From positions 1 to 25,953 of IMG/VR virus record IMGVR_UViG_3300028392_000264: DNA of 25,953 nt; one strand, written 5' to 3'. The translations under genes were made by a program, and so were the position numbers. The stretch comes from a virus. Numbering within the stretch: position 1 is the first letter of the stretch; every line of letters begins with the position of its first letter. Under the pieces are notes generated by a model. That model made no database searches, was not told where the DNA came from, and saw only the letters and a list, made by a program, of their open reading frames with translations. Shown here one piece after another: positions 1,374 to 19,827 of this stretch.

Positions 1374-1416
1374 TTGAAATTTGAGGAAATTGATTTAATA
1401 GTAGAAAGAAGCGTTG

Positions 1417-2493
1417 ATGGCAATCTATAATGAGAGCATTGCCTACAACGAAGCTGGCGTTGCTTACAATGCCGGATCAACAGCTACAACAGGCTCAGGT
1501 TCAATCAGCCTTGCAGGTTCGGCAACCGTTTCTCTTTCTTTTGCGACAACAGGCTCAGGCTCAATCAGCCTTGTAGGTTCAGCAGCTACATCTTTCCCTA
1601 CAACAGGCTCAGGCTCAATCAGCCTTGTAGGTTCAGCAGCTACATCTTTCCCTACAACAGGATCAGGCTCAATCAGCCTAGTTGGTTCAACAAGCGATTC
1701 ACTTACATTTGCGACAACAGGTTCAGGCTCAATCAGCCTTGTTGGTTCAGCAACCGATTCACTTACTTTCCCTGCAACAGGCTCAGGTTCAATTAGCCTG
1801 GTTGGTTCGGCAACCGATTCACTTACTTTCCCTGAAACAGGATCAGGCTCAATCAGCCTAGTAGGTTCAGCAACCGATTTGCTCAAATTTGCGACAACAG
1901 GCTCAGGCTCAATCAGCCTAGTAGGTTCAGCAACCGTTTCTCTTTCTTTTGCCACAACAGGATCAGGTTCAATTAGCCTGATAGGTACAGCAACTTCATC
2001 CTTTGTTGTAACAGGATCAGGCTCAATTAGCCTAGTAGCAACTGCAACTGATTCACTTACTTTTGCCACAACAGGATCAGGCTCAATTAGCCTAGTAGGT
2101 ACAGCAACTTCATCTTTTGCTTATCCAAGTTCCGGAACTGGGTCGATCAGCCTTGTTGCATCTGGAACTTTTTCAAAGATTAGTTACGCCACAACAGGAT
2201 CAGGCGCAATCAGTTTAATAGCAACTGCAACTGACAATCTCTACTTTGCCACATCAGCTTCGGGCTTGATTTCTTTTACTGCTTCGGGATATGGCTACAT
2301 CGGCAATGGCGCTTCGATGAGTAACCAGTACCGAACCGGTACATCCATTGTTGAAAGAATCAGAGTCGGGGCTACAATGAATCCGAATAAGAATTTAAGA
2401 GTTGGATCAACAATCATTTTAAGACCCCGAATCGGTTCGCTAATCAGCAATCGTGAACGCGCCACTTCTACCATCACAAGGAGATCTCGATGA
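1417..2493 (+). CDS. Repeat-built virion protein with TGSGSISLVG repeats
   Basis: A 358-residue protein. The N-terminus MAIYNESIAYNEAGVAYN resembles short leader segments seen in actinophage structural proteins. It is followed by about 14 tandem repeats of 18-20 residues (consensus TGSGSISLVGSATDSLTFA, about residues 24-290). A basic C-terminal domain with few acidic residues follows (IRVGATMNPNKNLRVGSTI, ending in RRSR). An in-frame TTG at 1414 also exists, but the ATG at 1417 fits better behind the purine-rich AGAAAGAAG. The repeats should form a fibrous or solenoid beta structure, so a surface fibre or decoration protein is inferred. The stop overlaps the connector gene by 4 bases. I know of no function for this architecture. 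Confidence 0.7.
   Translation: MAIYNESIAYNEAGVAYNAGSTATTGSGSISLAGSATVSLSFATTGSGSISLVGSAATSFPTTGSGSISLVGSAATSFPTTGSGSISLVGSTSDSLTFATTGSGSISLVGSATDSLTFPATGSGSISLVGSATDSLTFPETGSGSISLVGSATDLLKFATTGSGSISLVGSATVSLSFATTGSGSISLIGTATSSFVVTGSGSISLVATATDSLTFATTGSGSISLVGTATSSFAYPSSGTGSISLVASGTFSKISYATTGSGAISLIATATDNLYFATSASGLISFTASGYGYIGNGASMSNQYRTGTSIVERIRVGATMNPNKNLRVGSTIILRPRIGSLISNRERATSTITRRSR
1486..2289 (+). repeat. In-gene tandem repeat array (54/60 bp units)
   Basis: About 14 tandem units of 54 or 60 bp encode TGSGSISLVG-type repeats. The units at 1546-1599 and 1600-1653 are identical at the DNA level. Others differ mainly at silent positions and in the 8-10 residue linker (ATDSLTF, AATSFP, ATVSLSF). 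The identical neighbours point to recent unit duplication by slippage or recombination, so copy number may vary between related phages. Confidence 0.9.
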
Positions 2494-18840: not shown

Positions 18841-19314
18841 ATGACTAATCCATTTACAGCGCCGGCAACAGCTGGCGAATCAGTTAAACCAGCAGATTTG
18901 CAAGGCCATCTGCTAATCATCAAGCCAGTTGAATACAAGACTGGCATTCAAACATCACTAGGCGAGGCAGAGGCAATCGAGGTCAACCTTGTTGATCTTG
19001 ACACCAACACCGAACACAACTCAGTTTTATTTTTCAACATCGCACTTCGATCAGCACTCAAGCCAAACATCGGCAAGTCAGTCTTAGCTCGCATTGGACA
19101 AGGCGTTGCCAAGCCAGGCAAATCCGCACCTTGGATCTTGGTCAATGCCACCGATTCTCAGGCCGACATTAACAAGGCAACCGCCTATCTCGCTGGCTCA
19201 GTTGTACCGCCAGCAGCGGCAGTGCCTAATGCAGGAGCGCCTGGCAGTGGCGCACTCTCGCCAGAGCAGTTGGCGCTTCTAGCAAAGCTAGGGGCAACGC
19301 CAGCGCCGTTCTAA
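18841..19314 (+). CDS. Probable single-stranded DNA-binding protein (OB-fold type of actinophages)
   Basis: A 157-residue protein. The first 115 residues are beta-rich (LQGHLLIIKPVEYKTGIQTS, AIEVNLVDLDTN, SVLFFNIALRSALKPNIGKS, VLARIGQGVAKPGKSAPWIL). A proline/glycine/alanine-rich linker and a short C-terminal tail follow. This layout and the GHLL...VxxxxTxxG...LFF..L...L motif series match a set of actinophage proteins that I consider SSB-like. Placed with Cas4-like, YqaJ-like and resolvase genes it would support recombination and replication. The tail lacks the acidic tip of bacterial SSB. AGAAAGCGA serves as a weak SD. Confidence 0.65.
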   Translation: MTNPFTAPATAGESVKPADLQGHLLIIKPVEYKTGIQTSLGEAEAIEVNLVDLDTNTEHNSVLFFNIALRSALKPNIGKSVLARIGQGVAKPGKSAPWILVNATDSQADINKATAYLAGSVVPPAAAVPNAGAPGSGALSPEQLALLAKLGATPAPF

Positions 19315-19325
19315 GCGCATAACGA

Positions 19326-19387
19326 TTTGCCGATGTTCGAGTGAGGTGACAGGGAAATCACTTCTGACGATACCCATCATCGGCAAA
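19326..19387 (+). ncRNA. Structured RNA element: long stem with internal hairpin
   Basis: An outer perfect 10-bp stem TTTGCCGATG (19326-19335)/CATCGGCAAA (19378-19387) encloses a second hairpin, GAGGTGA (19343-19349)/TCACTTC (19358-19364), with one G-U pair and loop CAGGGAAA. It lies in an approximately 160-base gap after the SSB-like gene and only one base before a tRNA-like cloverleaf. No T-run follows, so it is not a simple terminator. It could be part of a small RNA, an mRNA leader or a processing site. Read on + strand because genes on both sides are +. Confidence 0.6.
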
Positions 19388-19388
19388 A

Positions 19389-19445
19389 CCATTGGCAGGT
19401 TTGCATTGACGGGGAAGGCAATCTCGGTTCGATTCCGAGCAATGG
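19389..19445 (+). ncRNA. Miniature tRNA-like cloverleaf (57 nt)
   Basis: Four helices meet with no unpaired junction base. The acceptor-like stem is CCATTG (19389-19394)/CAATGG (19440-19445). The D-like arm is GCA-GGTT-TGC (19395-19404). The anticodon-like arm is ATTG (19405-19408)/CAAT (19419-19422) with a 10-base loop ACGGGGAAGG. The T-arm is CTCGG-TTCGATT-CCGAG (19423-19439), a canonical 5-bp stem with TTCGANT loop. It is too short for a decoding tRNA (usually above 70 nt), the anticodon loop lacks U33, and no CCA follows (ACAAG). It may be a tRNA mimic, a processing signal or a degenerate attachment-site remnant. Confidence 0.6.
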
Positions 19446-19477
19446 ACAAGGCTAGGCAAAATTATTAGGGGGAATGA

Positions 19478-19615
19478 ATGTCTGAAATTCCAAAAGCAAT
19501 GCACACTTGTTATTGCGGTTATTCACTTGCATCGGCTTACAAATTTTTAACTCAAGAGGAATTGAGTCGAATGATGTTGAACCATATTAAAACAATGCAC
19601 GGGAAAGTCAACTAA
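19478..19615 (+). CDS. 45-residue zinc-finger-like protein
   Basis: ATG at 19478 after TTAGGGGGAATGA, a strong SD; stop TAA 19613-19615 overlaps the next ATG. The protein contains HTCYCGYSLAS and MMLNHIKTMHGK, i.e. Cys-x-Cys followed 24 residues later by His-x4-His, similar to a compact C2H2-type finger (here CxC rather than CxxC). It likely binds zinc and perhaps nucleic acid. It follows directly after the structured RNA elements, so its leader includes or adjoins them. Confidence 0.7.
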   Translation: MSEIPKAMHTCYCGYSLASAYKFLTQEELSRMMLNHIKTMHGKVN

Positions 19616-19827
19616 TGGCAACCATGCGAACACGATTCAAGCGCACAACGCCGTTTCAGAAAGAATGCGGTTTCGTAGCTGACAATGGCTACGGTGAATT
19701 TGAGCAGTGCGAAGCCGATGCCGACTTCGGGGTTTATTTTGGCGATGACACTTCAACAAAAATGGTGAGTTGGTGCATCTATCACACGATTTGGATGGAA
19801 AGTCTATGGCGAGGGGAACGGCAATGA
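19615..19827 (+). CDS. Small Cys/His-containing hypothetical protein
   Basis: A 70-residue protein with a basic start (MATMRTRFKRTTPFQKECGF) followed by an acidic stretch (EFEQCEADADFGVYFGDD) and CIYHTIWMESLWRGERQ. Cys18, Cys32, Cys54 and His57 could form one zinc site. The family is not recognised. Overlaps of 1 and 4 bases with its neighbours show it is part of the operon. Confidence 0.65.
   Translation: MATMRTRFKRTTPFQKECGFVADNGYGEFEQCEADADFGVYFGDDTSTKMVSWCIYHTIWMESLWRGERQ

Follow-up and report, generated by a model that had tools for sequence, protein, structure and literature searches.

The freshwater phage recorded as IMGVR_UViG_3300028392_000264 in IMG/VR contains, in the gap between two genes, a miniature tRNA of 57 nt on the plus strand (19389 to 19445; unprefixed positions are those of the window, the whole 25,953-nt stretch of DNA that was analyzed). 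The structure of this mini-tRNA is real and under selection. We propose, with a probability of roughly 0.55, that it is a cis-acting processing signal, a form of tRNA punctuation by a mimic, at which host RNase P and a tRNA 3' nuclease would cut, while an adjacent hairpin would protect the new 3' end of the upstream mRNA. The features concerned are listed in Table 1.

Table 1. Features of the gap containing the mini-tRNA and of the flanking genes (window positions)
Feature	Position	Strand	Remarks
SSB-like gene, 157 aa, PHROG 870 (function unknown)	18841-19314	+	AlphaFold model with weak OB-fold/ssDNA-binding matches
Long hairpin, outer stem TTTGCCGATG/CATCGGCAAA (19326-19335 with 19378-19387)	19326-19387	+	Ends 1 nt before the mini-tRNA
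Acceptor stem, 5' strand CCATTG	19389-19394	+	Covaries with 19440-19445
D-like arm GC-AGGTTT-GC, GG in loop	19395-19404	+	Near-invariant in 40 sequences
Anticodon-like arm ATTG[ACGGGGAAGG]CAAT	19405-19422	+	Length varies among relatives
T-arm CTCGG[TTCGATT]CCGAG, canonical T-loop	19423-19439	+	3 of 5 pairs covary
Acceptor stem, 3' strand CAATGG	19440-19445	+	Covaries with 5' strand
Discriminator-like R (A) and invariant C	19446-19447	+	R in 34/34, C in 34/34; proposed 3' processing point
Next small frame, ~45 aa, ribosome site AGGGGG upstream	19478-19615	+	Read from sequence

The initial annotation had described a cloverleaf in this gap, and its coordinates and helices were found as described, with no unpaired base at any junction. 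The helix lengths that it gave (6, 3, 4, and 5 bp) hold in the window, where the D-like arm can be read as GCA[GGTT]TGC. Among relatives this arm is usually GC-AGGTTY-GC, and the third D-stem pair, A-T in the window, is A-C in about half of them; the conserved D stem is therefore 2 bp (GC/GC) with the loop AGGTTY. The element shares with canonical tRNA (RF00005) the acceptor and T-arm, the T-loop TTCRAYT, and the GG of the D-like loop. Unlike canonical tRNA, it is only 57 nt long, has an 11-bp acceptor/T stack and a 2-bp D stem, and carries a purine-rich anticodon-like loop of 10 nt in place of a 7-nt loop with U33; A-C-A directly follows the 6-bp acceptor, with no CCA end. ARAGORN found no tRNA in the window or in the mini-tRNA of the 40 relatives scanned (two calls, in L037 and L068, were unrelated and lay elsewhere), and an Rfam search of the window gave no match at its thresholds, no tRNA-like match below them, and no RF00005. 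The lack of a U33 loop and of CCA, the short acceptor, and the absence of ARAGORN and Rfam matches bear out the earlier view that this is not a decoding tRNA. No second copy was found when the window was scanned, and covariance model R1 likewise gives a single one. Elsewhere in the window (1414-2493), a 359-aa frame is built of repeated TGSGSISLVGSA units.

The folding energy of the mini-tRNA alone is not beyond chance (MFE of −15.0 kcal/mol, z = −0.57), and the MFE structure of the 57 nt differs from the cloverleaf, which has −12.3 kcal/mol. Single-sequence folding was set aside because covariation is decisive. In 80 viral contigs that carry a gene related to the upstream one, we read the gap behind this gene, and nearly all 80 gaps contain the same element with a different sequence. 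More elements came from a pattern scan that made no use of the neighbor gene. In a set of 40 distinct elements (A1), chosen with a full acceptor, 99.6% of cells are in standard pairs, compared to 73.5% after shuffling and 33 to 46% when the partner strand was slid. Two-sided changes occupy 129 cells (34 ± 5 in the control), and the covariation score is 0.687 versus 0.163 ± 0.016. Double changes occur at five of the six acceptor pairs, with the outermost pair being GC in 21 elements, CG in 16, and UA in 3.

Because A1 had been chosen with a full acceptor, the acceptor was also checked in 52 elements found by the D-/T-arm motif alone. All six pairs were present in 44 of these, and their 22 distinct acceptors have a mean of 5.27 pairs versus 3.46 ± 0.21 when permuted. 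Pairing of the T stem was required in the search, so its percentage arises by selection, while its double changes do not. The anticodon-like stem, which was never used for selection, has a mean of 5.0 bp compared to 2.4 ± 0.2 on permuted halves. Compensating changes thus preserve the acceptor and T-arm helices, as expected of a tRNA-like structured RNA. The covariation check on homologous gaps that the initial annotation had proposed came out in its favor: acceptor and T stems covary, the anticodon-like stem is kept, and the D arm is near-invariant. Its argument that compensating pairing of the acceptor strands speaks against chance was upheld in the relatives. In related viral loci, the element lies behind the SSB-like gene on the coding strand in 81 of 86, a count that includes many near-duplicates and some second-clade acceptors with 5/6 pairs, possibly in the wrong register. 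The same search found it in 0/86 loci on the reverse strand and in 1/86 shuffled gaps, which excludes chance as its origin. BLAST of the gap against cultured phages returned short matches only, mostly to the T-arm.

These data also bear on an origin from a tRNA gene. The T-arm and 3' acceptor strand are often contained in attP cores, as would fit an attachment site with a tRNA 3' end, and a remnant of tRNA capture had been suggested earlier. Either is highly improbable, since covariation of both acceptor strands and of the anticodon-like stem already contradicts them and selection strongly maintains the pairing of the stems in many phages. Furthermore, the element is found at the same place in dozens of contigs, and no integrase was noticed among the part of the window proteins tested.

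Among the relatives, the motifs of a tRNA elbow are constant, with the T-loop TTCRAYT in 34/34 and GG in every D-like loop. Read from the sequences, the acceptor and T stack is 11 bp throughout, as 6+5 in the group of the window and 5+6 in some other groups, and the 12th stack position lacks a Watson-Crick pair in 33/34 (two of these are U-G). The discriminator-like R is A in 28 and G in 6. The anticodon-like arm is free to vary in length and letters, which makes a synthetase, one of the partners suggested earlier, an unlikely target. Its loop is G-rich in most relatives (GGGGAA, GGAGAAG) and not in L014, L019, and L027. Other clades (L057, L060) have the T-loop TGCAAAT and other D-arms. In two IMG/VR contigs, L105 and L114, we observed versions of 45 and 44 nt without an anticodon arm, made up of the acceptor, GGCAGGTTTGC, a short linker, and the T-arm. 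G-rich, Shine-Dalgarno-like loops are usual in both the upstream hairpin and the anticodon-like arm (19350-19360 and 19410-19418 in the window, and in relatives). In the second clade, a kissing contact between the hairpin loop (CTTCCGT) and the anticodon-like loop (ACGGGG) was seen as complementarity by eye, with no clear covariation.

The upstream gene is called SSB-like here on the basis of its predicted structure. The AlphaFold model (pLDDT of 75) is mostly beta, its best Foldseek matches are weak (E values of 0.05 to 0.1) and include the ssDNA-binding PrgE and PRD1 P12, and exonuclease and recombination genes upstream help to make such a function probable. Most loci were found by way of the neighbor genes, and the fixed place of the element is therefore partly a matter of selection. 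When whole virus records were searched with R1, 40 of 47 gave a match; strong matches (E < 1e−7) number one per record and lie at this place, with weaker second matches in a few records.

Between the stop codon of the SSB-like gene and the ATG at 19478, the gap contains the long hairpin and, one base later, the mini-tRNA. The region of the hairpin folds stably (−22.7 kcal/mol, z = −2.9). Like an intrinsic terminator, the hairpin stands behind a gene, and relatives have a terminator-type hairpin in the same gap; unlike an intrinsic terminator, it is followed by ACCATTGG with no U run and then by the mini-tRNA. A helix of at least seven pairs ends no more than 6 nt from the acceptor in 37 of 41 relatives, mostly at 0 to 2 nt (26% of shuffles reach seven). 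At five loci (L038, L039, L040, L067, and L079), the mini-tRNA is missing and one strong hairpin occupies the gap, with T runs at three of the five. Homologues of the SSB-like gene in cultured phages are found only in phages of Actinobacteria, and the nine that were inspected have a strong terminator-type hairpin in the gap after the gene or in the next gap, with no mini-tRNA seen in these gaps. Together, these gaps indicate that the hairpin and mini-tRNA occupy the place of a terminator.

The region downstream raises the alternative that the mini-tRNA has a translational or regulatory function as part of the next gene's leader; the G-rich loop would then resemble a ribosome site, or the elbow would bind the ribosome or a regulator. 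In agreement with this, most anticodon-like arms have a purine loop that resembles a Shine-Dalgarno sequence. In L018, L021, L028, and L030, the next ATG stands directly behind A-C, 2 nt past the acceptor, and any ribosome site would have to lie within the folded RNA; the gene that begins there is by its start a homologue of window 19615-19827. In Mycobacterium abscessus prophages, copies lie ~40 nt before the first gene. Against this explanation, the downstream genes of different loci are not related to one another and mostly carry their own AGGGG site, and the exceptions with a loop that is not G-rich were noted above, so that we regard it as quite unlikely. Under the processing reading, a cut behind A-C in the same four loci would yield a leaderless message. 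Leaderless messages are common in mycobacteria.

Mini-tRNAs of other shapes were found in other genomes. An unrelated phage contig, L127 (IMGVR_UViG_3300011339_001202, 69 kb), has 13 T-arm motifs, all on the same strand, in a 4.5-kb stretch (L127:2472-6990, or 58.7 to 63.2 kb of the record), with the mini-tRNAs in successive gene gaps. Twelve of them lie 20 to 33 nt after a stop codon; for the first, the distance to the listed frame ahead of it is greater. Most are 44 to 65 nt ahead of the ATG of the next gene. In the ten that the parser resolved, the acceptor and T helices add up to exactly 13 bp, only the first has an anticodon arm, and a short GG-containing segment is kept; CCA follows in eight, usually with a 4- to 5-bp hairpin and then TAAACCAATN..ATG behind it. 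The array apparently resembles tRNA punctuation of a whole gene array. Rfam gave no match for the L127 elements, and a small protein of L127 used as a query matched only its own contig. A search with its primase found two contigs with a 68% identical primase and three or four such elements; they may be one phage because their matches are identical. In this related phage (L332, reverse strand), the mini-tRNAs lie at 2921, about 4450, 5272, and 6407, three or four in all, one with the T-loop TCCGACT and each followed by a hairpin such as TACGCAATAATGCGTA.

The M. abscessus prophages, such as prophiGD24-3 (L159:3001-3078), contain an unannotated 61-nt mini-tRNA after a long leader, upstream of a variable first gene. 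Two mini-tRNAs 9 kb apart were observed in Nocardia ninae (L230:1894-1949 and G076:C9:106796-106841), neither called by ARAGORN or Rfam, and the first has a 7-bp acceptor, a 9-bp middle stem, and an encoded CCA. Patescibacteria (Peregrinibacteria, Peribacteria, and others; L212, L215, L216, L221, L226, L235, L236, L224, and L238) have one or two tRNA-like genes per genome with the D-arm GGCAGGTTYGC, a 9-bp anticodon stem, and a 7-nt loop with GCG, ACG, GAG, GAT, or GTC. CCA is often encoded, some of the genes are divergent from ordinary tRNA, and they may be tRNAs with one long anticodon stem instead of the D/anticodon stack.

If the mini-tRNA is excised, it could itself be the product, a trans-acting small RNA that serves, for example, as a decoy for host enzymes that handle or cut tRNA. 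The detailed conservation of the tRNA-like core, the single strong match per record, and an anticodon-like arm that is kept as a stem though cutting enzymes would not need it all favor such a role. A product acting in trans would not explain why its place is bound to a gene end and exchanged with terminators or why the L127 arrays consist of many different copies, and the loop is not conserved, which rules out a decoy for anticodon nucleases. We consider this explanation unlikely. The place, the strand, the abutting hairpin, the exchange with terminators, and the L127 array instead favor action in cis; the hairpin on the 5' side, the place behind the SSB-like gene, the terminator exchange, and the arrays were beyond the view of the initial annotation and point to a role in mRNA end formation.

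In the proposed mechanism, the SSB-like gene and the genes that follow would be cotranscribed, and the element would fold into a tRNA-like elbow, with the GG of the D-like loop against the T-loop and an 11-bp acceptor/T stack. Host RNase P would cut at 19388/19389, just behind the long hairpin, which would then shield the new 3' end of the SSB mRNA. A cut by the host tRNA 3' nuclease at R-C (19446-19447) would free the new 5' end of the downstream message. The element would serve the upstream gene like a terminator without stopping transcription. In the window, in the related loci, and in the L127 array alike, the elements lie between genes on the coding strand, as punctuation demands. A different arrangement, in which the SSB mRNA ends behind an attached element by transcription end or a 3' cut, like a plant viral RNA and possibly with CCA added, would suit the invariant R-C and the CCA encoded in L127. 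Normally, all RNA on the 5' side of such an element would be lost to RNase P, and the strong hairpin stands exactly at that point, which leaves a 3'-terminal cap improbable. The tRNA-like structures of plant RNA viruses are similar in their non-decoding mimicry and T-arm-like end; they are pseudoknotted and sit at the 3' end of RNA genomes, whereas the mini-tRNA is internal to a DNA phage transcript and is a plain cloverleaf with D-like and T-arms.

RNase P had been named earlier among the candidate partners; we agree that it is a candidate and favor it, and we infer the cutting. Its usual substrate has a 12-bp acceptor/T stack and RCCA, and the enzyme has no need of an anticodon-like hairpin. 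The window family has neither the 12-bp stack nor RCCA, with 11 bp and R-C only, and L127 has 13 bp and mostly CCA. Our confidence is moderate mainly because of the 11-bp stack, the missing CCA in the window family, and the unexplained retention of the anticodon-like arm. Bacterial RNase P cuts minihelices of acceptor and T-arm, and its reported substrates include phage M3 RNA, the C4 antisense RNA of P1/P7, and T4 gene 32 mRNA (PMC11143913). The mini-tRNA is like these RNAs in being a phage RNA proposed as a substrate, and gene 32 of T4 codes for an SSB, which makes that substrate a suggestive parallel. To our knowledge, M3 RNA, C4 RNA, and gene 32 mRNA are not conserved intergenic cloverleaf miniatures. 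In mitochondrial tRNA punctuation, tRNA-shaped elements also lie between the genes of one transcription unit, a likeness that is striking for L127; here the elements are non-decoding miniatures in a DNA phage, at one site in the phage of the window, and presumably cut.

Structures that resemble tRNA are known, as are phage RNAs cut by RNase P. A family of covarying miniature tRNA mimics located between the genes of DNA phages was not found in Rfam or in the literature searched, in which subscription papers were thinly covered and a prior description is possible. The mini-tRNAs are a strongly covarying RNA family outside Rfam, missed by the tRNA finder, in dozens of uncultured freshwater phage contigs. 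Mycobacterial prophages contain differently shaped versions, as does a phage contig that has roughly one for each gap between genes. If the mini-tRNAs are cutting signals, these phages shape their mRNAs with the host tRNA maturation machinery, and the elements would serve as naturally occurring minimal substrates of RNase P and of tRNA 3' enzymes and would provide phage operons with an alternative to terminators that can be tested. Tentatively, and at slightly less than even odds, we suggest that unrelated phages each adopted shrunken, non-decoding tRNAs as punctuation, with which host RNase P and tRNA 3' enzymes cut operons into messages with hairpin-protected ends. If this is true, bacterial viruses would have a counterpart of mitochondrial tRNA punctuation.
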